From the NCBI GenBank assembly GCA_946480915.1, contig CAMLLO010000023.1:4772-68771 (forward strand): a stretch of 64,000 nucleotides of DNA. Direction: 5' to 3'. Each line of letters opens with the position of its first letter. The stretch's first letter is position 1. The stretch comes from an uncultured Sphingobacteriaceae bacterium. Lineage in GTDB: Bacteria; Bacteroidota; Bacteroidia; Sphingobacteriales; Sphingobacteriaceae. Of the stretch, positions 2,082 to 37,500 are shown in pieces. The translations under genes and the position numbers were made by a program. The notes beneath the pieces are model-generated. The model did not search any database and was not told where the DNA came from. It saw only the letters and a program-made list of their open reading frames with translations.

Positions 2082-3740
2082 ATGAAAGATTATCTCAAAT
2101 ATATCTTTATCCTGTCCCTGATGCTGTTCTTTCGTGAAGGATTTGCCGTAACTCCTGTTCCGCTTGAAATCCTGAGCAAAGGATATAAAAGATATGAAAC
2201 AGCCAAATTCAATGCTGTTTTTAGTAACAGCAAGCATAGTATTGTCAGGATTTCTCCGGAATTGAATGGTTTAAGTGGAGTTAAGCTTCGCTATAATAGC
2301 CCCGTACTGGCAGACGGCGAACTGAAATTTAGATTAAAACAGAATACCAAAATTCTTATAGGTGTATTTAGGGATTCCTTGAATGATAAAAGTTCAACTT
2401 ATTTATCATCAATAAACTTGCACGATGGGAAAGTCAACAGCCATCCAGTTCTCAAAAATGCTCTAACAATAAGCGGATTCCCATCAACAGATGTATATGG
2501 GGTTGACTTTCAAAAAGGCGTTCATCAAATTAATTGGAAAAACACCTTATTCGTCTTATTAGGTGCAGTAAATATTTCACATTCCTTTTCAGAGACAGAC
2601 GCTGGTTTACCCGACGGCCGGTTATGGGATCCATTTATAGTAGAAGGATTTTCCAACGAAAAACCTTTATTTGAGATAATCGGCGGACCCGAAAAACCTG
2701 TGATCTGCCAGGGAATGCCCGGAACAGAGGGCATATTGGGAGGGTTCGAAGGTGGTGCCTGTGTTAAAATAGGAGATACGTATCATATGTTTCCTACAGA
2801 GAGGGCCGGACAGGAAGGGATTGAGATGTACTTTGACAGGGTAAAAACCAGGATCGGACATTGGACAAGTAAAAATGCCATCAACTGGACACGTCAGTCG
2901 ACCATTTATCAGGCAAGCGGAAATTACGCTATAACGCCCGAAGACAATCCTTTAAATGACAGGAGGGGTGCGATCTGGTCGTATATGCCGGTATTTAGTA
3001 AGGAATCGAACCGCTGGTATGGATATTATTTGGCCTACACCGTCGATAAAAATATTTCTCCAAATCACTCATTTGGAAGAATTTGGCGCACAGAATCGGT
3101 GAAAGAAGGTTATGAAGGAATTGGAGGCCCGTACAAAGATTGTGGAATTATTATGGAACCGGGAATGGATACACAATTGTGGGAAGGCAGGCAGGGAGTA
3201 GATTCCTTTTTCCCCTATAAGGTTGGGAATGAATGGCTCGCATTTTATGGTGGTGCATACCCATATAAAAACAAACAAGATTATCCTGATAAATTAGGGA
3301 AAGGCTGGTTTGTAGGACTAGCTAAATCCAAAACAATGGAAGGTCCCTGGACGCGTTTAGACACTATTATTAATCCTATTCGGTCCATCCATCCATGGTT
3401 CATCGAAAATCCTATAGTTTATAGCTTACCAAACGGACTGTTCATCACCATATTTGATGGTGGCCCCGAAGGTTGGGGGCATCATTTACCAAACATGATT
3501 GGATATTCGCTTTCGAAAGATGGTTATAAATGGTCGGAAGCCCATTATTTACCCATAGAAACAAAAGTAAATAAGTGGTGGAATATTATGCGTACACCGC
3601 TTTGCCTTATTCCCGAAGGAAACGATACCTATACGGTGATGTATGCAGCGATAACTTCAGAGAGATTTCATCCCATGGGAATGGTGAAGCTAAAGCTCAA
3701 TAGAAGTGTTTTGGATACGAAGAAGGATGATTTAAGGTGA
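2082..3740 (+). CDS. Exported beta-propeller glycosidase-like protein (GH43/GH117-like)
   Basis: 552 residues with an N-terminal hydrophobic segment (IFILSLMLFFREGFA) fitting a signal peptide, so probably periplasmic or exported. The N-terminal ~190 residues resemble a carbohydrate-binding beta-sandwich (LPDGRLWDPFIVEGF). From about residue 200 the repeated 'Y.MFPTER', 'NAINWTRQS', 'EGPWTRLD' and 'DGYKWSEAHY' elements are typical of five-bladed propeller glycosidases. Likely acidic residues occur (e.g. in PEDNPLNDRRGAIWSYMP and HPWFIENPIVY), but the catalytic set could not be assigned. It follows the enolase-family gene by 17 bases and probably acts in the same glycan pathway. Confidence 0.65.
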   Translation: MKDYLKYIFILSLMLFFREGFAVTPVPLEILSKGYKRYETAKFNAVFSNSKHSIVRISPELNGLSGVKLRYNSPVLADGELKFRLKQNTKILIGVFRDSLNDKSSTYLSSINLHDGKVNSHPVLKNALTISGFPSTDVYGVDFQKGVHQINWKNTLFVLLGAVNISHSFSETDAGLPDGRLWDPFIVEGFSNEKPLFEIIGGPEKPVICQGMPGTEGILGGFEGGACVKIGDTYHMFPTERAGQEGIEMYFDRVKTRIGHWTSKNAINWTRQSTIYQASGNYAITPEDNPLNDRRGAIWSYMPVFSKESNRWYGYYLAYTVDKNISPNHSFGRIWRTESVKEGYEGIGGPYKDCGIIMEPGMDTQLWEGRQGVDSFFPYKVGNEWLAFYGGAYPYKNKQDYPDKLGKGWFVGLAKSKTMEGPWTRLDTIINPIRSIHPWFIENPIVYSLPNGLFITIFDGGPEGWGHHLPNMIGYSLSKDGYKWSEAHYLPIETKVNKWWNIMRTPLCLIPEGNDTYTVMYAAITSERFHPMGMVKLKLNRSVLDTKKDDLR

Positions 3741-3779: not shown

Positions 3780-4760
3780 CTAAACTAAAACTGCTTGTTT
3801 ATTAAACTTCGCCCGGTAATTCAAAGGAGAGAGGCCTGTTATCTTCTTAAAGACTTCCCTGAACGCTTTATCGTCCGAATATCCTACCTCATTCATCACC
3901 TCAAAAATACTTTTCCTGCCTTTTTCCAAAGTGCTTTTCGCCACTTCCACCTTTACACGCTGTAAATATTCCATCGGTGTATTACCCGTGGCTTTGATAA
4001 AACGCCTGTCGAAGTTTCGCCTGCTCGTCGCTAGTTTTGAGGCCAGATCTTCGAAAGAAATTCGTTCGCTTAAGTTCTCTTCAATATACGTTTGGGCTCT
4101 GCTGATCAATTCGTCGCCATGATTCTTCTGTGTTTGAAAAATTCTAAAAGGCGATTGCGAGTCTCTTTCAATATCAATTTGGAAAATTTTAGAGCAGTAT
4201 ATCGCCGTCTGTCTGTCAAAATATTTTTCAACCAGGAACAGTATCAGGTTCAGAAAAGAATATGCACCACCGTTGGTATATATTCCCTTTTCAACAGTAA
4301 GCAGCTTATCGATATGAAGCTTAATGTTTGGAAACAGCCGTGTAAAACCGGCTGCCGCATTCCAATGCGTGGAACAGCTCTTTCCGTCCAGTAACCCTGT
4401 AGCCGCCAGCAGAAATGCACCTGTACAAATACTTGCCAGTTCGGCACCACTTTCATACTGCTCTCTGACCCAAACAATAAGCTCTTTATTATCCTTAAGT
4501 ATATTGTCATAATCGTGGGCGAGCGAGGGAATAATCAGCAAATCGGTGTTCTTTATGTCTCTGATATTTACCGGATGAATTGAGAAAAAGCCCGCATCCA
4601 ATTTCAGGTTTGTTTCAAAACCGGCTATACGGATTTCAAACATTGGGTTGTTTCCTATCCTCTGCCAATAGTCATTTGCTCGGGTCAGGATTTCGAATGA
4701 ACCGGTTATGCTGCTTAGATTAACGTTTCCCTTTGGGACAACGATCGTTACTTGCTTCAT
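3780..4760 (-). CDS. GlxA-type transcriptional regulator (DJ-1/PfpI domain plus AraC HTH)
   Basis: 326 residues. The N-terminal ~185 residues form a DJ-1/PfpI-like sensor domain with the nucleophile-elbow sequence ELASICTGAFLLAATGLL, here probably used for ligand sensing. Residues ~215-320 form the AraC-family double helix-turn-helix (FEDLASKLATSRRNFDRRF, then EVGYSDDKAFREVFKKITG, then LSPLNYRAKF). This is the standard GlxA layout and a normal length. It is divergent from the AHSA1 genes starting at 4905 across a ~145-base intergenic region, so it may regulate them. Inducer unknown. Confidence 0.88.
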   Translation of the reverse strand: MKQVTIVVPKGNVNLSSITGSFEILTRANDYWQRIGNNPMFEIRIAGFETNLKLDAGFFSIHPVNIRDIKNTDLLIIPSLAHDYDNILKDNKELIVWVREQYESGAELASICTGAFLLAATGLLDGKSCSTHWNAAAGFTRLFPNIKLHIDKLLTVEKGIYTNGGAYSFLNLILFLVEKYFDRQTAIYCSKIFQIDIERDSQSPFRIFQTQKNHGDELISRAQTYIEENLSERISFEDLASKLATSRRNFDRRFIKATGNTPMEYLQRVKVEVAKSTLEKGRKSIFEVMNEVGYSDDKAFREVFKKITGLSPLNYRAKFNKQAVLV

Positions 4761-4904
4761 TGTAGATTTTTAGATAAAGATAAATGAATGGTTTGTCCAA
4801 ATCAACCCTTTAGAATGTCTATTTCACAACCTGCTAAACCATAATTAAGACCGTAATTTTACTTTATTCAATTTGAAAATTTGATCTTATAAAATAAAAA
4901 GAAA

Positions 4905-5394
4905 ATGGCTACATCAGATTTCACTACTACCATATTGGTAGACCAGACCCCGAGAGAAGTATTCGATGCCATCACCAATGTTCGTGGATGGGTGGTCGGA
5001 AGAGATTGAAGGCAACACAGAAAAAGTCAATGATGAGTTTAAGTATCATTATGAAGATGTCCACCGTTGCGAAATGAAATTAATAGAAGTCGTCCCCAAC
5101 GAGAAAATCGTGTGGCTGATTAAGGACAACTATTTTAAGTTTACTAAAGACAAAAGCGAATGGACAGGTACAAAAATCAGTTTTGACATTTTCGAAAATG
5201 ATAACAAAACGCAGCTCCGTTTTACTCACATAGGTTTAATTCCCGAATATGAATGTTTTGAAATTTGCTCAAATGCATGGACCCAATACATACAGCAAAG
5301 TTTATATAGCCTGATAAGCACAGGTAAAGGTATGCCCAATGCGAAAGGTAAACCGCAAACTGCCCATGAAAAAGAGCTGAGTTCGGCCTCATAG
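4905..5394 (+). pseudogene. AHSA1/SRPBCC (START-like) protein gene interrupted by a +1 frameshift
   Basis: From the ATG at 4905 the frame encodes MATSDFTTTILVDQTPREVF and on to a tryptophan at 4989, then runs into a stop (TGA, 5007-5009). Skipping one G of the GGG at 4990-4992 joins it to the downstream frame, giving a WWSEEIEG junction that matches WWTDDLEG in the neighbouring paralogue at 5427. The rejoined protein would be about 162 residues, close to the paralogue. So this is a single-base insertion: a recent pseudogene, a programmed shift or a sequencing error. The family binds hydrophobic ligands in a START-like pocket; specific role unknown. Confidence 0.8.
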
Positions 5395-5426
5395 ATAGAG
5401 CAATTCTTCTATTAAAAAATATAAAA

Positions 5427-5867
5427 ATGAAAGTAAAGGATTATACGGCAACCATTTTGGTGAATGCCACAGCACAGGAAGTGTTTAAAGGCATTAATCG
5501 TGTTTCGAAGTGGTGGACAGACGATTTGGAGGGCAGCTCGCAAAAGCTGAATGACGAATTTACAGTCCGGTTTGGCGACATCCATGTTTCAACCCAAAAA
5601 GTAATTGAACTTATCCCCGGTAAAAAAGTGACTTGGCTGGTTACCGACAGCAAGCTTAATTTTGTTGAAGACAAACAGACCTGGAAGAACACTGAAATTC
5701 GGTTCGAACTATCTGAGCAAAACAACAAAACCCAAATCAATCTCATTCACGTCGGCTTAGTTCCTGAACTTGAATGTTACCACGACTGTGAAAAAGGCTG
5801 GGATTATTATTTTAAAGGAAGCCTATTCAAATTATTAACAGAAGGAAAAGGAACACCAGGACTTTGA
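5427..5867 (+). CDS. AHSA1-like SRPBCC domain protein
   Basis: 146 residues, a full-length Activator of Hsp90 ATPase homologue 1-like START fold: N-terminal TATILVNATAQEVFKGI, then WWTDDLEGSS, a central EFTVRFGDIHVS, and the C-terminal helix around ECYHDCEKGWDYYFKGSL. It is a paralogue of the interrupted gene 32 bases upstream and probably shares its transcript. Such proteins bind small hydrophobic ligands; the Bacteroidota members are mostly uncharacterised. Family certain, function not. Confidence 0.85.
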   Translation: MKVKDYTATILVNATAQEVFKGINRVSKWWTDDLEGSSQKLNDEFTVRFGDIHVSTQKVIELIPGKKVTWLVTDSKLNFVEDKQTWKNTEIRFELSEQNNKTQINLIHVGLVPELECYHDCEKGWDYYFKGSLFKLLTEGKGTPGL

Positions 5868-5911
5868 ACCGACTCCTTTGTAAGGATACTTAACACTCAA
5901 TCAAAATAGAC

Positions 5912-6511
5912 ATGAAAAATTTACTTTTTGTAGCAATTGCTTTTTTAAGCATGAGCTTTAATAATTCTGCCGGTTTAACTGATGCAGAACGCAAACATGC
6001 CTTAAATTTTTTACAGGCGACACAAGAGAACTTCCTTAAAAAAGTGAGCGGACTTAGGCAGGAGCAATTGGCTTTTAAACCCGACGCGGCCAGTTGGTCT
6101 GTCGCAGAATGTGTGGAACACATTGCTATATCTGAGACTAACTTATTTGGATGGACTGAAAAGGCTCTTAGCGAACCCGCTGATCCATCAAAACGGAGCG
6201 AGGTAAAGACGAGTGATGAAGATCTTGTTAAAATGATCACCGATCGAAGTATCAAAAGAAACGCACCGGAAACGTTTAAACCTACCGGTAGATTTGGCAC
6301 GTATGAAGCCACTCTTAAGGAGTTCATAACCAAGCGGGAAGTCCACATTAATTATATTAAAACTACTGCTGATGACTTACGGAATCATTATTATGATTTG
6401 CCGTTTGGAAAAATTGATGCCTACCAGGCGATTCTGTTTATGGCCGGCCACTGCAAGCGACACACAGATCAGATTGAGGAAATAATGAAGAATGTAAATT
6501 TTCCAAAATGA
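5912..6511 (+). CDS. DinB-family (DinB_2 / YfiT-like) protein with a signal-like N-terminus
   Basis: 199 residues. The first ~21 (MKNLLFVAIAFLSMSFNNSA) look like a signal peptide, unusual for the mostly cytosolic DinB fold. The rest is a four-helix bundle: FLQATQENFLKKVSGL, then the WSVAECVEHIAISE helix with a candidate metal histidine, and C-terminal MAGHCKRHTDQIEEIM supplying two more (His...His). The three-histidine pattern is the family's metal site, linked in relatives to thiol-dependent transferases. It is 44 bases after the AHSA1 gene and may be in the same operon. Confidence 0.85.
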   Translation: MKNLLFVAIAFLSMSFNNSAGLTDAERKHALNFLQATQENFLKKVSGLRQEQLAFKPDAASWSVAECVEHIAISETNLFGWTEKALSEPADPSKRSEVKTSDEDLVKMITDRSIKRNAPETFKPTGRFGTYEATLKEFITKREVHINYIKTTADDLRNHYYDLPFGKIDAYQAILFMAGHCKRHTDQIEEIMKNVNFPK

Positions 6512-8258: not shown

Positions 8259-10127
8259 ATGGCTATGAATGTTACACGAATGCCTGTCCATTTTGATCCT
8301 GATCCAAAACGGGTTATCGTTCGTTTTTTTATGCCCGGAGGGCCCGGCAGAGCCAAAAAGATTATTTCCCGTGTTATGGAGTTATCGGAGAGTGACGCTT
8401 CGCAGGTTCTTAACCAAACACTTCGTGATTTTTCTAACCGGCACCGCAATATAACCCGCATTTTTTCTAAACATTTCGATCGTGTTTTACACTTGTTAGT
8501 AGAGCTGGGTTACGATCCCCAAAAAATGAAAAAGGAGCGTCAGCTTTTGGTGGGGGCTTATTTCACACATGAGTACTCAATTGAATCGGCGGCGTTTTTC
8601 AATCCTTCTTTGATAGAGGACCCGGATCAATCGCATCTTCAAAGTAATCAAAAGCGGGTCATCGTAAGTTTTAGAGCTACAGGGGAGGGGCATGTGTCAT
8701 CCGTCGTTTTTCGCGGCGGGGTGCTTGGTGCTGATAATAATATTGAATTTGATCCGGCCAGCCGACTGGTAGATGAAGCTGAAACTATCAAACTTCATAT
8801 TTATGAAAAGTCTAGCTTTTTATCAAAGCTGCATGATATGCACCTGGAAGATTATGATGTAGTTGATAAGATTTTTAGTCCTTTGGGTGATACTTTCGTT
8901 TTTAATGATTTGAGAAATAGAATTACAGAGTATCAAAAGACCGATGAAATAAAAATCACCGATCAAAAAGTATTACAATCGATTAAATGGATTGCCAACG
9001 CACAATATCAGATTACATTTTCTTTCGATACGGCAATAGCCGAGCGGGTCATCTTTCCGATAAGCGATACAGAAAGCAACGGCATTGAGGATGCCCGATT
9101 TGTGCGCTTTACCGAAGATGACGGAGATACCCGGTATTATGCTACTTATACGGCCTATAATGGTTTTGTTATTTTGCCTCAGCTAATTGAGACGAGTGAC
9201 TTTTATACATTTAAGATAATGCCGATTTATGGAAAATACGCGCAGAATAAAGGGATGGCGCTTTTTCCGAAAAAGGTTAATGGGTCCTATGCTATGCTTT
9301 CACGCAATGACGGGGAGAATAATTACATTATGTATTCTGACCAGATTAATAATTGGGATAACGACCCAGTATTACTTCAGGAGCCTCGTTTCCCCTGGGA
9401 GTTTATACAATTAGGAAATTCAGGATCGCCGATTGAAACCGAGCATGGTTGGCTAGTGATAACTCATGGTGTGGGTGCCATGCGCAGGTATTGCTTAGGA
9501 GCTATTTTACTTGATCCGGATGATCCGAGCAAGGTAAACGGGCAACTACCAATTCCATTACTTACGCCTAACGAAGAGGAACGTGAAGGCTATGTACCTA
9601 ATGTGGTATATTCTTGTGGTTCAATAATTCATAATAATACATTAATTATTCCGTATGCCATGTCTGATTATAGTTCGGGGTTTGCAAGTGTTTCTATGGA
9701 TGAGGTCTTTGAAAGTATGCTTTTTAAAGGAAGCAAAAAAGAATCGAACCGGATTGCTAAGAAGAGCCGCACTATACTGTTAGCGGAAGACAATGAATTA
9801 TCCCGGTTAATTACTGCCAAAATACTTACCGATGAAGGGTACAATGTCGTGCTTGCCGCTGATGGCATGGATGCTTTAATGGAAATAAGCAAAAGGCCTT
9901 TTGATTTGATTTTATCGGATATTTCAATGCCTAATGTAACAGGATACCAGTTACTGGAAGTTCTGAAGTCTAAGAATATAAAAATTCCAGTTGTTTTTCT
10001 CACGAGCCATACTAGCGAAGAAGATGAAGTAAAAGGTTTGGAACAAGGTGCCGTTGAATATCTTAGAAAACCAATTGCCAAAAACTTATTGGTATTAAGG
10101 GTTAATAAACTGTTTAACTTGAAATAA
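8259..10127 (+). CDS. GH130 glycoside phosphorylase-like enzyme fused to a response-regulator receiver domain
   Basis: 622 residues from the ATG at 8259 (a TTG 21 bases upstream is less likely, since the paralogue aligns from here). No signal peptide, so cytosolic. Residues ~95-490 are a GH130 five-bladed propeller; the GIEDARF element (Asp278) fits the family's EDPR catalytic motif, and residues 1-95 are a helical extension. Shared blocks with the gene at 15120-16580 include IQLGNSGSPIETEHGWLVIT and REGYVPNVVYSCGS. Residues ~505-622 form an apparently complete receiver: acidic pair in LLAEDNE, phospho-acceptor Asp554 in LILSDISMPN, Thr582 in VVFLTSH, Lys604 in YLRKPI. GH130 enzymes phosphorolyse or hydrolyse beta-mannosides. 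Receiver-controlled activity is inference. Confidence 0.85.
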   Translation: MAMNVTRMPVHFDPDPKRVIVRFFMPGGPGRAKKIISRVMELSESDASQVLNQTLRDFSNRHRNITRIFSKHFDRVLHLLVELGYDPQKMKKERQLLVGAYFTHEYSIESAAFFNPSLIEDPDQSHLQSNQKRVIVSFRATGEGHVSSVVFRGGVLGADNNIEFDPASRLVDEAETIKLHIYEKSSFLSKLHDMHLEDYDVVDKIFSPLGDTFVFNDLRNRITEYQKTDEIKITDQKVLQSIKWIANAQYQITFSFDTAIAERVIFPISDTESNGIEDARFVRFTEDDGDTRYYATYTAYNGFVILPQLIETSDFYTFKIMPIYGKYAQNKGMALFPKKVNGSYAMLSRNDGENNYIMYSDQINNWDNDPVLLQEPRFPWEFIQLGNSGSPIETEHGWLVITHGVGAMRRYCLGAILLDPDDPSKVNGQLPIPLLTPNEEEREGYVPNVVYSCGSIIHNNTLIIPYAMSDYSSGFASVSMDEVFESMLFKGSKKESNRIAKKSRTILLAEDNELSRLITAKILTDEGYNVVLAADGMDALMEISKRPFDLILSDISMPNVTGYQLLEVLKSKNIKIPVVFLTSHTSEEDEVKGLEQGAVEYLRKPIAKNLLVLRVNKLFNLK

Positions 10128-10476: not shown

Positions 10477-11559
10477 ATGAAACCGTTTACTGCGAAATTC
10501 CGAACCGGTAACCTGGATTTTGGAGTTATAATAACACCATCAGAGAATAATAGAAAATTCAAAGTTGAAATGGTTACGGGCGAGCGAAATCCCGCAATTC
10601 TCACTCGTTCGGATAATGATCAATGGATAATCGAGACCAAAGGGGTTCTTAATGTTTCAGATGAGGAATTTCAACAACTGGAACGGGCCATTGATGAATG
10701 TCTGAATAAAGTGTACGGTATGAAAACTATTGTTGTACTAACAGATTTCTCAGACGCTGCATTTAACGCGGCCCGGTATGCCGCGGCTTTAACACATCAG
10801 CTGGGAACATCTGATATGATATTGTATCATTCTTATCAATTTCGTTACAAGACAAAGAGCCTGCCCGAATTCATGCCCGCCGGCTCCGTTGAACTTTATA
10901 ATGAAAGTGTTAAAGATCTTGAAGATTTAAAAAGCAAACTTCAACCGCTGGTAAATGAAAAAACAACTATAGAGATCCGTACAGATGAACGTCCGCTTAT
11001 TGATGCAGAACAGTTGATTGCTGAGCAGCAGAATGCTGGCCTGGTTGTGATGGGTATAACTGGTAAAAGCAATCTTGAACAAATACTTGTGGGCAGCAAT
11101 GCGATTAATGTTGCAAAAGAATGTTCAGCCCCTTTACTCATAGTGCCAAAAGAAGCAACGTTTGAAAGTATAAAGAGGATATTATTTGCCTGCGATCTTA
11201 GAAAAATTTCCAACACGACCCCGGTAAATACTGTAAAAACATTTGTTCATGCTCTAAAGGCTAAACTTGTCATTCTAAACGTAGAACCTAAGGAGTGGGA
11301 TCATTTTAATCAGGACACGGTTTCTCAACAGTCCTTATTGCATAAACAATGGGATGATGAAAAACCGGAATACCATTATATTAATCACGATGATGCAGCC
11401 GACGGAATTATGGGGTTCGCGCTTGATCATGACATACAAGTGGTAATTACCGTGCCTCAAAAGTACGGTCTCTTTGAAAGTCTGTTTCATCGCAGTCTCA
11501 CTAAAAAATTAGCTTTCCATACAACAATTCCTTTATTACTATTAAAAGAGGAGATTTAG
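10477..11559 (+). CDS. Tandem universal stress protein with extra N-terminal domain
   Basis: 360 residues. Residues ~81-215 are a UspA domain (MKTIVVLTDFSDAAFNAARY) with the ATP-binding signature G-x2-G-x9-G-S seen in GITGKSNLEQILVGS; residues ~230-360 are a second UspA-like domain whose equivalent motif is degenerate (VPQKYGLFESLFHRS). Residues 1-80 are an additional small beta-rich domain of unknown type. The start at 10477 is supported by a strong CAGGAGG about 10 bases upstream, rare in Bacteroidota; the alternative is Met81 at 10717. Usp proteins respond to stress and bind ATP. Its place among GH130 and GT genes suggests stress-linked glycan metabolism. Confidence 0.85.
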   Translation: MKPFTAKFRTGNLDFGVIITPSENNRKFKVEMVTGERNPAILTRSDNDQWIIETKGVLNVSDEEFQQLERAIDECLNKVYGMKTIVVLTDFSDAAFNAARYAAALTHQLGTSDMILYHSYQFRYKTKSLPEFMPAGSVELYNESVKDLEDLKSKLQPLVNEKTTIEIRTDERPLIDAEQLIAEQQNAGLVVMGITGKSNLEQILVGSNAINVAKECSAPLLIVPKEATFESIKRILFACDLRKISNTTPVNTVKTFVHALKAKLVILNVEPKEWDHFNQDTVSQQSLLHKQWDDEKPEYHYINHDDAADGIMGFALDHDIQVVITVPQKYGLFESLFHRSLTKKLAFHTTIPLLLLKEEI

Positions 11560-11842: not shown

Positions 11843-14122
11843 ATGAAAATAGCATATATTTCAACCTACCCTCCACGTGAATGTGGATTGGCGACTTTTA
11901 ATCATAATCTTATAAGGGCTATAAATTCTAGTTTTTCAACTAAAACTCTATCCCAATCCTGCTTTGTTGTTGCTTTAAACAATTCTGAAAATATGCAGGA
12001 GTATGATTATCCAGATGAAGTTAAATGTGTGATCAGACAAAACTACCAAAATGACTATACTGATGCGGCTAATTTTATAAATGCCAGCAATGTGGACGCA
12101 TGCATCCTTCAACATGAATTTGGAATTTATGGCGGTGAAAGCGGAGTTTATGTTCTTCCTTTTCTTAACAAACTTGAAAAACCTCTTATTACAATTCTTC
12201 ATACCATATTAAAGTCGCCTACCTTCTTGCAAAGAGTTATTATTCTCGAAATCGCAAAGAGGTCTGCAAAAGTGGTTGTAATGAGTAAACGTGCTGTAAA
12301 ATTTCTGATTGAGATTTATCAGGTGCCTGAAGAGAAAATTCAGCTTATTGAGCATGGAGTGCCAGATCTGGAAGCTCCGGATGTTAATCCTGTCAGAGAG
12401 TTTTCGGAATTGAAAAATAAGCGACTGTTACTCACTTTCGGATTACTCAGTAGAAATAAAGGGTTAGAGACAGTGATTCAAGCATTACCCCGAATTGTAC
12501 AAGAGCATCCTGATGTAATGTATGTTATCTTAGGAAATACACATCCCGGAATAGTGAAAAATTCTGGTGAAGAATACCGGGACGCGCTAAAACAGCTTGC
12601 CGTTGAATTAAAAGTTGATCAGCACCTTACCTTTATTAATAAGTTTGTTTCAGAAGACGAGCTGATTAATTACTTGACAGCCGCCGATATCTATATTACC
12701 CCGTATTTCAATGAAGCTCAAATTACTAGCGGTACACTTTCATATGCTGTTGGGGCGGGGGCCGCTATAGTATCTACTCCTTACTGGCATGCCCAGGAAC
12801 TTTTAGACGATAATCGTGGGCGTTTATTTAATTTTAAGGATGAGCTTGGACTTGCCAGTATTGTTAACCAACTCCTCGAAAGTCCGGAAAAGCTAAATAC
12901 ATTAAAAAATAATGCTTACCAATACGGTCTTAAACTTCGCTGGCCAAAAATAGGGCTTGAGTATATTGATCTGGTTGAAAATGCTGTAAGAAACCCTGAT
13001 TATAGTGAAAAGATCCTCAGTCAGATTATTGATCCCGGCGTGATGCCAGAATTTGATTTGGCATATGCAAAACGGTTAACAGATGATACCGGTATTTTTC
13101 AACACGCTAAGTATGGTATTCCTAATCGTAAAGAGGGTTATTGTCTGGACGATAATGCCCGTGCTCTGATTATGGCATTAATGGCATACCAGATGAATAA
13201 GAACAAAGAAGCTCTCGATTTACTTCCCGTTTACTTAAGCTTTATACACGATATGCAGCTAGATAACGGTAATTTCCGTAATTTCCTAAGCTTTAGCAGG
13301 CAATACCTTGATGACGAGGGTTCTGATGATTCCTTCGGCCGCACTATCTGGGCCCTGGGCTATCTGATACATACTGCCCCGAATAATTCATACAGAGAAC
13401 TGGGGCAAGAATTATTCCTCAAGTCTATCCCTCACTTCCAAAAGCTGACACATCTTCGAGGAATAGGCAATGCAATTACAGGTATAAGTTATTATTTAAG
13501 AACTTATCCTTATGATGAGAGATTAGTGCAGGAACTCAAAACGCTAACCAATAAATTGATGGAAGCGTATCATGTCACAAAAGGGGAGGACTGGCATTGG
13601 TTTGAAAATCATCTGACTTATGATAATGCCATCCTGCCTTTGGCTTTATTTCATTCGGCAGAGATAACAAGAAATGAAGATGTAAAAAGGGTCGCCTTCG
13701 AAGCATTAATATTCATTGAAAAACTTACCGTTAGCAATGATTATCTGAATCCTATAGGAAATAATGGATGGTACCTTAGAGATGGGAAAATGCCGCTGCA
13801 TGATCAACAGGCTATTGAAATAATGGCTATGGTATTGATGTATTTCCAGGCCTATCGCGTAACCGGGGAGACGAAGTATTTAAAGAAGGTATTTTCAAGC
13901 TATTTATGGTTTCTGGGAGAAAATTCGCTTCGTGTACCTTTATACGACACAGAAATCAAAGGCTGCTGCGATGGTTTACAGGAATCAGGCATTAACCGAA
14001 ACCAGGGAGCAGAGAGTACATTAGCCTATCTTATTTCTCATCTAACGGTACTTCAGGCTTTTAAACATGAATATCTGAATAACGAGAATATAGAAAAGCA
14101 GAAAAGCTTATTGTTTAAATGA
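11843..14122 (+). CDS. GT4 glycosyltransferase fused to an alpha/alpha-toroid domain
   Basis: 759 residues, no signal peptide. Residues 1-~385 are a GT4 (GT-B) transferase: YPPRECGLATFNHNLIRAI at the N-terminus, the nucleotide-sugar domain with LLTFGLLSRNKGLETVIQAL, and a degenerate EX7E region at YFNEAQITSGTLSYAVGAGA. Residues ~390-745 form an all-helical domain with GYCLDDNARALIMALMAY, WHWFENHLTYDNAILPLALF and NRNQGAESTLAYLI, resembling (alpha/alpha)6-type glycosidase or epimerase toroids. The fusion couples glycosyl transfer to a second carbohydrate-processing or binding fold. Its stop overlaps the next gene's start by 4 bases (ATGA), implying translational coupling. Donor and acceptor unknown. 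Confidence 0.82.
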   Translation: MKIAYISTYPPRECGLATFNHNLIRAINSSFSTKTLSQSCFVVALNNSENMQEYDYPDEVKCVIRQNYQNDYTDAANFINASNVDACILQHEFGIYGGESGVYVLPFLNKLEKPLITILHTILKSPTFLQRVIILEIAKRSAKVVVMSKRAVKFLIEIYQVPEEKIQLIEHGVPDLEAPDVNPVREFSELKNKRLLLTFGLLSRNKGLETVIQALPRIVQEHPDVMYVILGNTHPGIVKNSGEEYRDALKQLAVELKVDQHLTFINKFVSEDELINYLTAADIYITPYFNEAQITSGTLSYAVGAGAAIVSTPYWHAQELLDDNRGRLFNFKDELGLASIVNQLLESPEKLNTLKNNAYQYGLKLRWPKIGLEYIDLVENAVRNPDYSEKILSQIIDPGVMPEFDLAYAKRLTDDTGIFQHAKYGIPNRKEGYCLDDNARALIMALMAYQMNKNKEALDLLPVYLSFIHDMQLDNGNFRNFLSFSRQYLDDEGSDDSFGRTIWALGYLIHTAPNNSYRELGQELFLKSIPHFQKLTHLRGIGNAITGISYYLRTYPYDERLVQELKTLTNKLMEAYHVTKGEDWHWFENHLTYDNAILPLALFHSAEITRNEDVKRVAFEALIFIEKLTVSNDYLNPIGNNGWYLRDGKMPLHDQQAIEIMAMVLMYFQAYRVTGETKYLKKVFSSYLWFLGENSLRVPLYDTEIKGCCDGLQESGINRNQGAESTLAYLISHLTVLQAFKHEYLNNENIEKQKSLLFK

Positions 14123-15123
14123 AGATAGCTGTGTTAGCGCCAGTTGCGTGGCGGACACCGCCACGGCATTATGGCCCATGGGAACAGGTGGCGTCTAATG
14201 TTGCTGAGGGACTTGTTGCTGCAGGAATAGATGTTACCTTATTTGCCACGCAGGATTCTCTTACTAAAGGAAAACTGGATGCGGTGATAGCGAAAGGCTA
14301 TGCCGAAGATATGAATGTGGATGCCAAGACTGTTGAATGCCTGCACATTAGTAACCTGATGGAGAAGGCGGGGAGTTTTGATCTGATCCACAACCATTTT
14401 GATTTCCTTCCGCTTACGTATTCAAAACTAATCAGAACTCCTGTTTTAACTACCATACATGGCTTTTCATCTAAAAAAATAATTTCTGTTTATAAAAAAT
14501 ACAACCAGTCATCTCATTATGTATCAATAAGTAATTCGGACCGAAGCCCTGAATTACAATACCTGGGGACTGTGTATAATGGATTACGAATTTCTGATTT
14601 TACTTTCAATCCCGACCCTCACGATTATTTGTTGTTTTTAGGAAGAATACATCCTGATAAGGGTACAGCAGAAGCAATTGAAATTGCCCGTTGCTCTAAA
14701 AAGAAATTACTGATTGCAGGAATTATTCAGGATCAGGATTATTTTAATGAGAAGGTAAAACCCTTTTTAGGGGATGAAATTCAATTCCTCGGTCATGCCG
14801 GTCCGGAAATGCGTAACAAATTATTAGGGAATGCGATGGCGCTGCTTCATCCTATCCAGTTTAATGAACCTTTCGGGATGAGTGTAGCCGAAGCAATGCT
14901 TTGCGGAACACCGGTAATTGCTTTCAATAAAGGATCTATGCCCGAACTTATTGTCCATGAAAAAACCGGTTTTCTCGTAAATAATGTTCAGGAAGCCGTT
15001 GATGCACTGACTTCGATATCAAAATTAAACCGGCAATCTTGTAATGACTGGGCTGCTTCCCATTTCTCTCAGGAAAAGATGGCAGCCGATTATATTCATT
15101 TTTATAAAACCATTCTTAACTAG
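14119..15123 (+). CDS. GT4 family glycosyltransferase
   Basis: 334 residues, single-module GT4. N-terminal LAPVAWRTPPRHYGPWEQVA is the typical acceptor-side loop; LLFLGRIHPDKGTAEAIEIA opens the donor domain; FNEPFGMSVAEAMLCGTPVIA carries the canonical EX7E element. It overlaps the upstream GT4 fusion by 4 bases, so both are likely made in a fixed ratio. Its stop codon lies within CTAG at 15120-15123, shared with the convergent GH130 gene. No signal peptide or membrane segment is seen, so it should act in the cytosol. The sugar cannot be read from sequence. Confidence 0.88.
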   Translation: MKIAVLAPVAWRTPPRHYGPWEQVASNVAEGLVAAGIDVTLFATQDSLTKGKLDAVIAKGYAEDMNVDAKTVECLHISNLMEKAGSFDLIHNHFDFLPLTYSKLIRTPVLTTIHGFSSKKIISVYKKYNQSSHYVSISNSDRSPELQYLGTVYNGLRISDFTFNPDPHDYLLFLGRIHPDKGTAEAIEIARCSKKKLLIAGIIQDQDYFNEKVKPFLGDEIQFLGHAGPEMRNKLLGNAMALLHPIQFNEPFGMSVAEAMLCGTPVIAFNKGSMPELIVHEKTGFLVNNVQEAVDALTSISKLNRQSCNDWAASHFSQEKMAADYIHFYKTILN

Positions 15124-16580
15124 ATGCTTTTTAATTTATTCAGTAGATCCTTTAAATCTACTGAGGCAAAAGAGGACGAATAGTCTGATAGTCCGTAGGG
15201 AATAATTAGTTGGCCGTTGTTGATAATAGATCCGCAAGAGTAAACTACATTAGGTACGTATCCTTCACGTTCATCTGGATTTGGAACTAATAAAGGCTCT
15301 TTCAGCCGGCCGATTTCCACAGATGGATCGTCAAGCTTTAACAAGCAGGCACTCAGGCAATATCTGCGCATAGGGCCAACCGCATGAGTGATTACAAGCC
15401 ACCCTTCCTCGGTTTCAATAGGCGACCCGCAATTTCCGATTTGCACAAATTCCCAACTGTATTTCGGCTGATGCAGTTTTATAGGATTTTCCCATACATT
15501 AATATTTTCCGAATACATGATGTAATTATTCCATCCATCAATACGCGATAACATGGCATATTTTCCATTTATTTTACGTGGAAATAAAGCCAGATTTTTA
15601 TTTTGCGCGCCCGCACCAAATAGTGGTCCTATTTTAAAGTCATAAAAATCTTTAGTTTTTAAAAGTTTAGGCATTATAATGACACCATCATAAGCGGTAT
15701 AGGTGGCATAATAGGTTATCTGGCCATCGTCCCCGATAAACTTAGTAAAACGGGCATCTTCAATGCCTTTTCGTTCAAATTCTGATATTGGAAATATTAC
15801 CCTGTCGGAGATGTCAGTATCCATGGAAAAGATAATTTCGTAATATGAATCCGACAACCATAACACTTTTTCGAGCTCTACATCCCTTACCGGGTCGGGC
15901 TCAATTTTTTGTGATTCAAGAATGATCCTTCTTAATGTTAAATAATCGAAGTGTTCATCAAGTTTAGTATCCAATTCCTTTAACACATTAACACTAACAT
16001 GTGATACTAAAGCTTTTTCAAGAAAGAGCTTTTTATTGTAAGTAGCGCTCCGAATAATCTCGGCTTCATCAATATAATTTCCGACGGGGATAACACTAAT
16101 ATTATTGAATTTGTCGATTAATGCCCGTCTGAATACGATTGATGAAATGTGCCCTTCGCCAACTGCTCTGAAACTAATGATCAGGCGTCTTTCGCCTTCT
16201 TCAAGATCGGTCTGGTTGGGGTCTTCAATAATCGAGGGGTTAAAAAATGCGGCCGATTCAATAGAATATTCATGTGTAAAGTATGAGCCGAGAAGCAATT
16301 TTCGATAAGGTGGAATACTATCGTAATCAATTGCCAGGGCATCAAATAAAAATGTAAGCTTACTGCAATGCCTCTGCAGTATTTTTGTGATATTTCTATG
16401 CCTTTTTGAATATTCTTGTAAAAGCGGTGATATGATGCTGAAAACTTGTTCGTCGCTCAAAGCCATCACCATGTTGATTACTTCTTTGCCACGTTCATCT
16501 CCGTTAAAAAAAAATCTGGCAATTACACGTTTAGGATCAGGGTATACTTTAATGGGTTTCCGCTCTATAGGGAGTCTCAT
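15120..16580 (-). CDS. GH130 glycoside phosphorylase-like enzyme (no receiver)
   Basis: 486 residues, paralogue of the GH130 part of the gene at 8259-10127. It has the same helical N-terminal extension (YPDPKRVIARFFFNG) and propeller core, with GIEDARF (candidate catalytic Asp275), LALFPRKINGKYAMLSRI, and REGYVPNVVYSCGS. It ends without a receiver domain. No signal peptide. It points towards the two GT4 genes and overlaps the second one by 4 bases through the palindromic stop CTAG. GH130 members act on beta-mannosides, often by phosphorolysis; this long clade is less well studied, so the exact reaction is open. Confidence 0.85.
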   Translation of the reverse strand: MRLPIERKPIKVYPDPKRVIARFFFNGDERGKEVINMVMALSDEQVFSIISPLLQEYSKRHRNITKILQRHCSKLTFLFDALAIDYDSIPPYRKLLLGSYFTHEYSIESAAFFNPSIIEDPNQTDLEEGERRLIISFRAVGEGHISSIVFRRALIDKFNNISVIPVGNYIDEAEIIRSATYNKKLFLEKALVSHVSVNVLKELDTKLDEHFDYLTLRRIILESQKIEPDPVRDVELEKVLWLSDSYYEIIFSMDTDISDRVIFPISEFERKGIEDARFTKFIGDDGQITYYATYTAYDGVIIMPKLLKTKDFYDFKIGPLFGAGAQNKNLALFPRKINGKYAMLSRIDGWNNYIMYSENINVWENPIKLHQPKYSWEFVQIGNCGSPIETEEGWLVITHAVGPMRRYCLSACLLKLDDPSVEIGRLKEPLLVPNPDEREGYVPNVVYSCGSIINNGQLIIPYGLSDYSSSFASVDLKDLLNKLKSI

Positions 16581-27369: not shown

Positions 27370-28977
27370 ATGGACACAAACATTTCCTTAACAAGGAATA
27401 GTACTGCTGCACCTCAGAGCCGGGACTATTCAAGAATATACGCTGCGCTGGTATTGTTTGTAATAATACTTGCAGTCTCCATTACCGGATGTAAAAAGGA
27501 TGATTTTGAAGGTGAGATTTCGGGCGTTTGTCCGGTGGTCATCTCCGATCCAGTAAACGGAGCAGTTGATGTAGCTGTTAATAAAGTTATAGGTTTAACT
27601 TTCAATACCGACATGAAAGGTTCGACTGTTAATACCACAACGGTTACTTTAAAACAAGGTACTACATCAATTCCTGGAACCGTAGGACCTGCTGCCAATG
27701 GGAAAGATTTTACATTCACTCCCCAACAGCCGCTGGCCCCTTTCACTACTTATACTGGTACAGTAACAACCGGAGCAAAAGACACCTTGCGTTCGGCGAT
27801 GGCTGCTGATTATGTATGGAGCTTTACAACCGTACCGAGGATTACTCTATTATCCAACCCTGTTGCAGGTGGTACATCTACCGGTGGCGGAGACTTTGCC
27901 CAAGGATCATCAGTAACAGTAACAGCAACACCGAGCGCCGGTTATACATTTATTAACTGGACAAAGGTTGGCGCACCAACTGTACCCCTTTCTTCCGATC
28001 CAAGCTATCAGTTTAATATGGCGGGGAATGTAGACTTAGTTGCAAATTTTAGTCAGGTTCAAACTTTTACAGTTATTGTTGCAGCTAGCCCTGTGGCAGG
28101 AGGAACAACAACAGGATCAGGTGTATATGCATCGGGCACTTCTGCAACAATCAGAGCAATACCGAATAGCGGTTATTCATTTACAGGCTGGAGTGGTGAT
28201 GCTACAGGATCAACCAATCCATTAACATTGACGGTAAACGCGAATAAAAACATCACAGCAATCTTTGAGCTCGGCGGTCCGATTGCCGGTGCCGGAATTG
28301 GCCCGAACCTTCCCGGTTTAGGTGGATCAGGTACGTTCTCAATTCTAACAAAGGCTGGTATTTCAACTACAGGCATCACCTTAGTAAACGGTGACATCGG
28401 CGTGAGTCCTGCCGCAGCTACTTCAATTACAGGCTTTGGCTTAATAATGGATGCCAGCGGACAGTTTTCCCGTTCACCTATTGTAACTGGCAGAATATAC
28501 GCCTCAGATTACGCGGCACCAACACCGTCAAATATGACTACCGCAGTATCTAACATGGAAACTGCATATACAACTGCAAATGGCCTGGTAACACCCGCGC
28601 CGGTTCTGGAGAGAGGTGCCGGAAATGTTTCGGGATTGAATCTTGCCCCCGGTTTATATAAATGGAGTACAGGTGTACTTATCGACCCGAATACAACACT
28701 TACACTTACAGGTGGAGTAAATGATACCTGGGTGTTCCAGATAGCACAAAATCTTACGGTGAGCAATGGTGCCAAAATCGTTCTTCAAGGCGGTGCCCAA
28801 GCCAAAAACATTATGTGGGTAGTTGCAGGTCAGGCAACTCTCGGAACCAACACTAACTTTAGTGGAATCGTCCTGAGTAAAACCTTGATCTCGGCAAATA
28901 ATGGCACTATAATAACCGGCAGGTTATTAGCGCAAACAGCGGTTACACTGATTGGAACCACCATTATTCAACCTTAA
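27370..28977 (+). CDS. Surface lipoprotein with Ig-like, InlB-type repeat and DUF3494 (ice-binding) domains
   Basis: 535 residues. Lipobox in SITGCKKDD near residue 41 after a longish N-terminus. Domains in order: an SbsA-type bacterial Ig-like domain (~55-155, SDPVNGAVDVAVNKVI to VWSFTT); two InlB B-repeat-like units (~160-235 and ~237-300, with AGYTFINW and SGYSFTGWSGDA); and a C-terminal DUF3494 beta-helix (~315-535, with VNGDIGVSPAAA and LNLAPGLYKW). DUF3494 is the fold of bacterial ice-binding proteins, though many members have other or unknown surface roles. The next gene encodes an OmpA-type protein 72 bases on. Confidence 0.85.
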   Translation: MDTNISLTRNSTAAPQSRDYSRIYAALVLFVIILAVSITGCKKDDFEGEISGVCPVVISDPVNGAVDVAVNKVIGLTFNTDMKGSTVNTTTVTLKQGTTSIPGTVGPAANGKDFTFTPQQPLAPFTTYTGTVTTGAKDTLRSAMAADYVWSFTTVPRITLLSNPVAGGTSTGGGDFAQGSSVTVTATPSAGYTFINWTKVGAPTVPLSSDPSYQFNMAGNVDLVANFSQVQTFTVIVAASPVAGGTTTGSGVYASGTSATIRAIPNSGYSFTGWSGDATGSTNPLTLTVNANKNITAIFELGGPIAGAGIGPNLPGLGGSGTFSILTKAGISTTGITLVNGDIGVSPAAATSITGFGLIMDASGQFSRSPIVTGRIYASDYAAPTPSNMTTAVSNMETAYTTANGLVTPAPVLERGAGNVSGLNLAPGLYKWSTGVLIDPNTTLTLTGGVNDTWVFQIAQNLTVSNGAKIVLQGGAQAKNIMWVVAGQATLGTNTNFSGIVLSKTLISANNGTIITGRLLAQTAVTLIGTTIIQP

Positions 28978-35151: not shown

Positions 35152-37500
35152 TTAACAAACATTGGCCAGTTCAGATGCTTTCTTTAACGCTTTTAACAGA
35201 TCTTCTAAATTTATCGGCTTTGATAAATAATCGTCCATTCCAGCATTGAAACATTTCTCTCTATCTTCCGATAGTGCATTGGCTGTTAAAGCAATAATAA
35301 CGGGTTGATTGTGATGACTTTTTCTAATTATTTGCGTTGTTTCAAGTCCGTCGAGTTCGGGCATTTGCATGTCCATTAAGATGACATCATAGTTCCGTTC
35401 AGCTAACCGATCAAGCGCTTCTCTGCCGTGATTTGCCAGGTCGGGACTATAGCCAAGCTTACCTAGTATCTTTAATATTAATTTTTGATTGATAAGATTG
35501 TCCTCCGCTATTAATATTTCCAGAGGATGATTGACTGCAAAATCTTCCGAAAGTACCTTAGTCGAAGGTTGTTCAGATTTTAAGGGCTCCTTTATTTGCT
35601 TCAATTCTGATTGAATGACTTTAATTAATTGCTGTTGTTTAACAGGCTTGGTCAGAATGGACGAAAATAGTTCAGAATACTTCTTCTTGGTTTCGTCCCC
35701 AATCGAACTTAATAAGATGATTGGAATATCTGGCGCCAATTCTTTTATCCGTCTGCTTAAATCTACTCCGCTCATTTCCGGCATTTGCATATCGGTGATT
35801 ACCAGATCGAAATTTTTGTTATAGTTGAGGATAAATAATGCCTCTTGTCCCGAAAGGGCTGTTAGTACAGATAGTCCCCAGTTTTCTAACTGAGTTTTTA
35901 ATATAGTGAGATTTGTTTTATTGTCATCAATAATCAGAATTTGCTTCCCTTCACAGCCTACAAGATTGCGATTGGCATATATTCTTGACGATTGCGTGCC
36001 TGCCAGACATTTAACCGTAAAGCTAAAAGAAGAGCCTTGTCCTTCTGTGCTTTCCACAGAAATCTGGCCACCCATTAAATCAACCAGTCGTTCGCTTATT
36101 ACTAGCCCCAAACCAGTGCCTCCGTATTTGCGGGTAGTAGATGAGTCGACTTGCGAAAATGCTTTAAATAATCTGGATAGTTTATCAGGAGCTATCCCGA
36201 TACCCGTATCTTTCACCTGAAAGCCAATGGTTAACAGCCCACCTTCATTTATCTCCACCAGCTTCACATCTATAAAAATCTCCCCTTCATCAGTGAATTT
36301 TGTTGCGTTTGCTACAAGGTTTATTAAGATCTGGCGCAACCTCAACCCATCGGCTATAATTTGTGCAGGTATTTGAGGGTCTATCTGATAAATTAAATCG
36401 AGTCCTTTCTCGGAAGCTTTCACGGAGAATAGATCCATAATATCCTCCACACAAGTTCGCAATTCAAAGTCATGAGGGTCAAGTTCAAGGCTTCCTGACT
36501 CAATTTTTGAAAAGTCAAGAATATCGTTAATAACCGTTAGCAGATTTTCGCCACTGGTATGAATTACTTCCAAATACTCTTGCTGCTCTTTGCTAAGGAT
36601 TGTTTCTGACAATAAGGCTGTCATACCGAGCACGCCATTCATCGGAGTTCTTATTTCGTGACTCATCGTTGCCAAAAACGCACTTTTAGCTTGATTCGCC
36701 TGGTCGGCTTCTTCTCTGGCCTGGCGTTCCTGTTCTTTTTGAGCAATTAAGGCCGTATTGATCTGAACCAGCTCAATTTGCTGTGCTTCAAGTTCCTCAG
36801 CCTGCAACTGTGTAGTTTCGTACAGATCCTGAAGTTTAATGTTGGCACGGTTTGTTCGTTCTTCAATTAATTTCTGATGTCCGAACGTCCGCTTGATATA
36901 CCGAAACAGGATATACACCAGAAAAAGGATAATTGACAGGGCAAACCCAAGAAATACCAAGGTATTCCGGGCGTTTTTTTTACTGTCAAATCGCCTCTGT
37001 GCTAATAATCTTCCTTCAATTTTCTTAAGGTTTTCAATACTGTTTTCCACCTTCACCATCGTACTGTCGGCATTAATTTCGTTTTTTGCTTCTTCCAGAC
37101 CACCTCCATTATAGGCCCAAAGAATCTTACTTAATGCAAAAAGCTTTTGTGAAGCGTAAATTCTTATCGAATCCACACGTTTTAATTGCCTTCCCTCATG
37201 TATAACAAGCGACCTAAGCCTGTCTATCGAAGGCATGATCTTACTAAGTGATTCGTTATACAGATCAAGGTATTTAGTGTTTCCTGTTGTTATATAGGCT
37301 CTGCTGCTACTTTCGGCCAGGCTGATATTAATCAGCACCACATTCGAAAATTTGATAATTTCCTGTGTCTGATCAACAGAAATATTATCCTTTTCCATTT
37401 CGGTTATACGGATGTAGGAAATAATTCCAACAGAGAAAACAAATCCCAATGTAATCGCAAAGCCTGCTAAAACTTGTTGTTGGAAAGTGAATTTTTTCAT
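35152..37500 (-). CDS. Hybrid sensor histidine kinase with CHASE3-like sensor and two receiver domains
   Basis: 782 residues. Transmembrane segments at ~9-31 and ~180-201 flank a periplasmic CHASE3-like domain (AYITTGNTKYLDLYNES). A coiled coil (~205-270) leads to HisKA with phospho-acceptor His281 (TMSHEIRTPMNG), then HATPase_c (NLVANATKFTDEGE, KYGGTGLGLVISERL). Two receivers follow: the first with Asp in VITDMQMPEMSG, the second with Asp in ILMDMQMPELDG and Lys in DDYLSKPI. There is no Hpt or DNA-binding output, so it needs a partner. It is ~25 kb from the receiver-bearing GH130; a link is speculative. Confidence 0.93.
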   Translation of the reverse strand: MKKFTFQQQVLAGFAITLGFVFSVGIISYIRITEMEKDNISVDQTQEIIKFSNVVLINISLAESSSRAYITTGNTKYLDLYNESLSKIMPSIDRLRSLVIHEGRQLKRVDSIRIYASQKLFALSKILWAYNGGGLEEAKNEINADSTMVKVENSIENLKKIEGRLLAQRRFDSKKNARNTLVFLGFALSIILFLVYILFRYIKRTFGHQKLIEERTNRANIKLQDLYETTQLQAEELEAQQIELVQINTALIAQKEQERQAREEADQANQAKSAFLATMSHEIRTPMNGVLGMTALLSETILSKEQQEYLEVIHTSGENLLTVINDILDFSKIESGSLELDPHDFELRTCVEDIMDLFSVKASEKGLDLIYQIDPQIPAQIIADGLRLRQILINLVANATKFTDEGEIFIDVKLVEINEGGLLTIGFQVKDTGIGIAPDKLSRLFKAFSQVDSSTTRKYGGTGLGLVISERLVDLMGGQISVESTEGQGSSFSFTVKCLAGTQSSRIYANRNLVGCEGKQILIIDDNKTNLTILKTQLENWGLSVLTALSGQEALFILNYNKNFDLVITDMQMPEMSGVDLSRRIKELAPDIPIILLSSIGDETKKKYSELFSSILTKPVKQQQLIKVIQSELKQIKEPLKSEQPSTKVLSEDFAVNHPLEILIAEDNLINQKLILKILGKLGYSPDLANHGREALDRLAERNYDVILMDMQMPELDGLETTQIIRKSHHNQPVIIALTANALSEDREKCFNAGMDDYLSKPINLEDLLKALKKASELANVC

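Follow-up and report, generated by a model that had tools for sequence, protein, structure and literature searches.

Can a two-component receiver joined directly to a carbohydrate enzyme place that enzyme under the control of a sensor kinase? The question is raised by a gene on contig CAMLLO010000023.1 of an uncultured Sphingobacteriaceae bacterium (assembly GCA_946480915.1), of which a stretch of 64,000 nucleotides, hereafter the window, was analyzed. The gene encodes an enzyme of glycoside hydrolase family 130 (GH130) followed by a receiver. The outputs of two-component systems are usually interpreted as transcription or second messengers; if the reading proposed here is true, attaching a conserved receiver to a reversible glycoside phosphorylase would let a sensor kinase control carbon flux post-translationally, not via gene expression. 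We judge it somewhat better than an even chance that the fusion works as a response regulator with a cytosolic beta-mannoside phosphorylase for its output, controlled by the receiver and partnered with GT4L, in which a retaining glycosyltransferase is linked to an (alpha/alpha)6 domain. The computed basis of this reading comprises the domains themselves, their intact residues, a receiver that forms a single group, co-inheritance with GT4L, and a constrained linker.

The fusion is genuine and recurs across Bacteroidota orders

The open reading frame (ORF) starts with ATG, has its sole stop at its end and is otherwise unbroken. Translation might also begin at a TTG 21 bases upstream, although the relatives start near the ATG. 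By its Pfam profile the protein belongs to GH130 (Glyco_hydro_130, PF04041, residues 260 to 486, 102.3 bits against a cut-off of 26), and Response_reg (PF00072) follows in frame at residues 506 to 615 (94.4 bits against a cut-off of 30.2). Profile score, fold and the full set of acidic pair, Asp, Thr/Ser and Lys all identify the second domain as a CheY-like receiver. An earlier reading of the sequence alone had described a full receiver at the C terminus of a carbohydrate enzyme with an intact GIEDAR motif, and both parts of that description hold, with E510/D511, D554, T582 and K604 present in the receiver and E277-D278 in the enzyme. As a single chain that holds both a receiver and a metabolic enzyme, the protein qualifies as a response regulator with a metabolic-enzyme output.

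The sequence-only reading had allowed that the domains might prove to be split in close relatives, pointing to an assembly error. Instead, the 120 best database matches (one being the window's own protein) all carry GH130 plus receiver at 58 to 100% identity, a statement that applies just to the closest relatives, since these are the best 120 of 7,998 scored candidates. Two separate records from other sources (P0002 and P0003) encode the fusion protein at 100% (rounded) identity, the homologue of Pedobacter superstes P351 (P0009) is 87% identical, and internal stops were absent from the fused copies scored in other genomes (6/6 and 1/1). Because other records and genomes hold the same uninterrupted fusion, an assembly or frameshift artifact is ruled out.

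The same reading had also named a widespread, annotated architecture among the findings that would refute it. The architecture does recur across several Bacteroidota orders, with Pedobacter, Chitinophagaceae, Maribacter, Flavivirga, Flavobacterium and Bacteroidales among the source names of fused matches, but its annotation is merely mechanical ("response regulator," "glycoside hydrolase family 130 protein" and similar). One fused relative, P0079, is filed under the sea spider Nymphon striatum and probably reflects bacterial contamination of that assembly. Among genome loci from GTDB (the best 80 of 580 relatives, which makes the fused count a lower bound), 37 were fused, 42 were unfused and one was unscored; in this last locus (L048) the GH130 ORF was not picked, leaving 79 of the 80 in the GH130 tree and in the residue and neighbor counts. 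Fused locus L029 is labeled Verrucomicrobia and comes from a metagenome bin that may be misassigned; L026, also fused, has no phylum label. In a sample of 198 genomes from the phylum of genome G009, the long GH130 is common and the fusion uncommon: 31 genomes had a GH130 match, near full length for the long GH130 in 23 of them, and only one had a match over the full span of the fusion, in counts that include G009, the sample centre. None of 399 genomes from the family of Pedobacter sp. N36a matched at strict thresholds, a search without a positive control that does not demonstrate absence.

The enzyme domain is a long-form GH130 with an intact active site

The GH130 part is a long form of about 490 amino acids, of which the Pfam profile covers the final 227 residues only. 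Structural matches begin upstream of that recognized part, at residues 1 to 3 of the fusion, and the fold is a propeller like that of solved GH130 members. Among solved folds, those of beta-1,2-mannoside phosphorylases and a related synthase come closest. The phosphorylases Teth514_1788, Teth514_1789 and Lin0857, which rank among the best structural and sequence matches, share with the fusion the propeller, a catalytic Asp with a preceding Glu, and basic residues. Their solved chains span 303 to 363 amino acids, whereas the fusion adds the receiver and helical segments (roughly residues 28 to 101 and 184 to 247 of the predicted model) that, judged by length, also occur in unfused long-form relatives. 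The two forms can lie close together: a Neomarinimicrobiota bin (L044) has a short GH130 of 303 amino acids at 2227-3138 near a long one at 4481-5968.

None of the GH130 active-site residues checked varied among the 90 proteins compared, fused or unfused. Two of them, D278 and D470, correspond in alignment to D92 and D281 of Teth514_1788 (the catalytic and the second mannose-binding Asp). N115 is equally invariant, and its putative match to the mannose-binding Asn28 of Teth514_1788 was assigned by order and motif, outside the printed alignments. K331, R349 and H403, likewise conserved in all 90, are matched in alignment by basic residues in Teth514_1788, Teth514_1789 and Uhgb_MS and on that ground may contact phosphate. 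The GH130 part would be expected to have phosphorylase chemistry and specificity for mannose, and the fusion enzyme is presumably cytosolic.

Receiver residues and linker length are largely conserved

The phosphorylation residues of the receiver are intact in all 47 fusions of the tree set and in 113 of the 120 database matches, and the five phosphorylation positions and the switch tyrosine are conserved over a wide divergence of fusions. Seven matches (P0054, P0075, P0080, P0082, P0085, P0091 and P0095) have lost part of the set and are possible pseudo-receivers. The receiver evolves faster than the enzyme, with median identities to the query of 53% and 68%, respectively. The stretch spanning the linker (residues 480 to 504) measures 20 to 27 residues in 47/47 fusions. 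Given phosphorylation residues that are kept across the family and a linker of narrow length range, the fusion fits regulation by phosphorylation.

One fusion event is likely

In a GH130 tree built with a quick method and drawn with a midpoint root, 46 of the 47 fusions fell in a single group (Shimodaira-Hasegawa-like approximate likelihood ratio test [SH-aLRT] support, 93), while the 47th, L026, grouped with unfused L035 and L046. Taken by itself, this tree needs two changes and would allow two independent fusions. The receiver tree, however, places L026 with the other fusions: when 23 further receivers of the window and the loci were included for comparison, all 47 fusion receivers still formed one group (ultrafast bootstrap, 81; SH-aLRT, 99). 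We therefore prefer one gain followed by a few losses as the likely history, which is not firm, because the receivers are short (118 columns), the branches are long, and the bootstrap support is moderate.

The window also encodes an unfused long-form GH130, and the sequence-only reading had taken this sibling as a natural unregulated control. That it lacks a receiver proved correct, as it consists of a GH130 domain only. As a control it is poor, because it is an old paralogue in a separate clade, tied to its own pair of family 4 glycosyltransferase (GT4) genes and identical to the fused enzyme at 256 of 483 aligned residues (53%). The separate clades and this level of identity also rule out a recent duplication of the two genes.

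The fusion is co-inherited with GT4L

The GT4L gene adjoins the fusion gene in 28 of the 37 fused loci, and the GT4L partners of fusions form their own clade in a GT4L tree (from which the truncated GT4L of L009 was omitted), showing co-inheritance. GT4L also accompanies the unfused long GH130 in 28/42 loci. These results point to a module of long-form GH130 and GT4-(alpha/alpha)6 that recurs in Bacteroidota and several other phyla. In L057:11467-13804, GT4L occupies two adjacent ORFs of 402 and 372 amino acids, apparently the GT4 and (alpha/alpha)6 halves, by natural split or frameshift. The features of the window that bear on the fusion are collected in Table 1.

Table 1. Positions in the window of the fusion gene, its parts and associated genes
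Feature	Position	Strand	Description and basis
GH130-receiver fusion gene	8259..10127	+	622 aa; ORF list, Pfam, homologue matches
Long-form GH130 domain	8259..9719	+	Residues 1-487; Pfam, structural matches, alignment
Catalytic E277-D278	9087-9092	+	GIEDAR motif
Interdomain linker	9720..9764	+	Residues 488-502
CheY-like receiver	9765..10124	+	Residues 503-622; Pfam, structural matches, conserved residues
Predicted phospho-acceptor D554	9918-9920	+	Receiver alignment
Universal stress protein gene	10477..11559	+	Between fusion and GT4 genes; Pfam
GT4L	11843..14122	+	759 aa; GT4 glycosyltransferase with C-terminal (alpha/alpha)6 domain
GT4S	14119..15123	+	334 aa; second, short GT4 glycosyltransferase
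Unfused long-form GH130	15120..16580	-	486 aa; old paralogue of fused enzyme; Pfam, tree, alignment
Hybrid histidine kinase	35152..37500	-	CHASE3, HisKA, HATPase_c, two receivers; motif scan and domain search; candidate only

Proposed mechanism and alternatives

In the mechanism that we favor, the N-terminal 490-residue GH130 propeller would phosphorolyse, or in reverse build, a beta-linked mannoside, with alpha-mannose 1-phosphate and phosphate as the exchanged compounds. A histidine kinase, usually encoded elsewhere, would phosphorylate Asp554 of the receiver and so shift the switch residues Thr/Ser582 and Tyr601, and this change would pass via the short, length-conserved linker to alter active-site access or oligomeric state. 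Together, the fusion enzyme and GT4L might turn over an intracellular glycan or oligosaccharide. Phosphorylation in vivo, the direction of control, and the substrate and product are putative elements of this scheme. A more far-reaching version, which we regard as speculative and on the whole unlikely, holds that a histidine-kinase pathway directly gates the mobilization of an intracellular beta-mannoside reserve in Bacteroidota, tying carbon release to sensed stress or starvation as a bacterial, Asp-phosphorylation counterpart of glycogen phosphorylase control. Mannose 1-phosphate would then lead to fructose 6-phosphate through phosphomannose isomerase, and in at least one genome the fusion has genes for making and degrading cyanophycin beside it.

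Several observations weigh against the favored mechanism. On the enzyme side, the NCBIfam equivalog scores of 152 and 141 bits lie far under their cut-offs of 550 and 450, and the phosphate contacts of K331, R349 and H403 are suggested by alignment, not taken from structures. The 15 solved sequences found (303 to 390 amino acids) include no long-form GH130, so substrate specificity is uncertain; nor was a solved or characterized long form met in the sequences and literature examined. The predicted model has a predicted template modeling score of 0.68, a low-confidence linker and no interdomain error, so domain packing is not readable from it, and 7/120 database matches have altered phosphorylation residues. 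As for partners, the window's own GT4L falls in the clade found with unfused GH130, and GT4L was not seen in 7 of the 37 fused loci, two of which lie at contig ends. Phosphomannose isomerase genes adjoin the fusion at three loci only, and these group together. Finally, linked kinases are no rule. The fused loci with one number at least 8 among 37 (motif scan and Pfam gave seven, Pfam added L007), against at least 4 among the 43 others. These lower bounds are too small and, since the scan misses some kinases, too loosely counted for us to claim enrichment, and the neighboring kinase of L007 has a LytTR regulator of its own.

The receiver might instead be a phosphorylation-dependent docking or dimerization module that recruits a constitutive GH130 enzyme to GT4L or another partner. 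GH130 chemistry needs no receiver, since unfused long GH130s retain every checked active-site residue (43/43) and keep company with GT4L, and many receivers work through dimerization or protein contacts. The narrow linker length in all 47 fusions favors close coupling, though docking might also require it, and we consider this alternative doubtful. A different view retains receiver control and makes the enzyme a hydrolase or synthase. PMC4599007 places beta-1,2-mannosidases in GH130; Uhgb_MS, whose structure is among the nearest solved ones, bears the title of a mannoside synthase; and the GIEDAR Glu precedes the catalytic Asp as it does in GH130_NC, a group of hydrolases and phosphorylases. 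Arg349 and His403, however, occupy sites that are basic in beta-1,2-phosphorylases too, and the characterized mannosidases are without the three basic phosphate-binding residues; mapped by spacing, Glu227 and Glu268 of BT3780 would correspond to Arg349 and His403. We regard a hydrolase or synthase as improbable.

That the receiver is a phosphate sink or an evolutionary passenger with no effect on the enzyme seems to us very unlikely. Such a role would agree with its faster divergence, with the altered residues in a few database matches, and with the grouping of unfused L035 and L046 beside fused L026, a pattern suggestive of loss or of a separate history. Yet the phosphorylation positions and switch tyrosine are kept over wide divergence, and the fusion has been maintained through several orders. 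Receiver control of a beta-mannoside phosphorylase remains the reading we prefer.

Comparison with known systems

Receivers fused to standard metabolic enzymes are a described category with several bacterial cases, according to PMC5847659, which also describes archaeal cases that include a receiver with a BcsA-like glycosyltransferase in Methanobacteriaceae. In that protein, too, receiver and metabolic enzyme share one chain, and environmental control has been proposed; as described there the archaeal fusions are narrow in distribution, whereas the present fusion joins a relative of GH130-type phosphorylases to a C-terminal receiver in several Bacteroidota orders. No description of a GH130-receiver fusion was found in searches of the open-licence PubMed Central literature, a scope that excludes most subscription papers and one key bacterial review; PMC5320581, in the parts available, treats GH130 and receivers separately. 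We rate the GH130 case as a response-regulator class that is conserved and widely distributed and whose output is of the glycoside-phosphorylase type, within an enzyme-output category that is itself already known. The GT108 mannogen enzymes of Leishmania (MPT-4, 6q50; 12% identity, no receiver) are likened to the fusion in role only, with no claim of GT108 membership. Glycogen phosphorylase is controlled by serine phosphorylation. If our best explanation is right, the fusion would likewise be a stored-glycan phosphorylase switched by protein phosphorylation, but the folds are unrelated, and phosphorylation, which falls on a Ser of the enzyme itself in glycogen phosphorylase, would here fall on an Asp of the attached receiver.

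Kinases, regulators and other neighboring genes

As a rule, the motif scan and Pfam revealed no linked cognate kinase in the 37 fused loci, and most fusions look like orphan regulators. The motif scan detected a kinase in seven of these loci, all confirmed by Pfam, and gave five matches among the 43 other loci: L071, L076 and L078 were confirmed by Pfam, L057 is supported by the motif scan alone, and the match in L037 was false, the protein being DUF815. A kinase lies directly upstream of the fusion on the same strand only in L009 (with receiver, PAS and PocR domains) and L038 (with PAS and GAF domains), which cluster together in the GH130 tree. In L007:9097-13037, where the stretch lacks GT4L, genes for a LytTR response regulator and a His_kinase protein border the fused gene on either side. 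The window's CHASE3 hybrid kinase was the sole kinase that the scan, which misses some kinds, found there; lying 25 kb from the fusion, it is a candidate only. Genes for a GH1-like protein and a glycosyltransferase lie nearby.

No single-domain receiver was recognized beside the unfused GH130 in the 16 unfused loci whose neighbors were inspected, and in L078 an OmpR-type regulator and a kinase adjoin the unfused GH130. Upstream of the fused gene in L004 (3458-3898) is a receiver-only ORF of 146 amino acids (32.2 bits against a cut-off of 30.2), whose branch in the receiver tree is very long.

Neighboring genes at other loci were named partly by eye and otherwise by Pfam or NCBIfam. A type I phosphomannose isomerase gene adjoins the fused gene at L006:8765-9763, L018:11784-12581 and L031:11866-12864. 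In L090:5750-11929, the fused gene lies between genes for cyanophycin synthetase and cyanophycinase, both above NCBIfam cut-offs. Downstream of the GT4L gene, an N-acetylmuramic acid 6-phosphate etherase is encoded in L012:10704-12389 (by NCBIfam) and L020:15145-16830 (a copy 86% identical), together with a BadF-type sugar kinase, named by eye. Directly upstream of the fused gene in L005 (8107-9846), one ORF combines GNAT acetyltransferase and histone-deacetylase-type domains. No relative of the window's universal stress protein scored above 100 bits in any of the 80 fetched loci. Elsewhere in the window, positions 27370-28977 encode an ice-binding-like protein with Big_5 and divergent InlB B-repeat domains.
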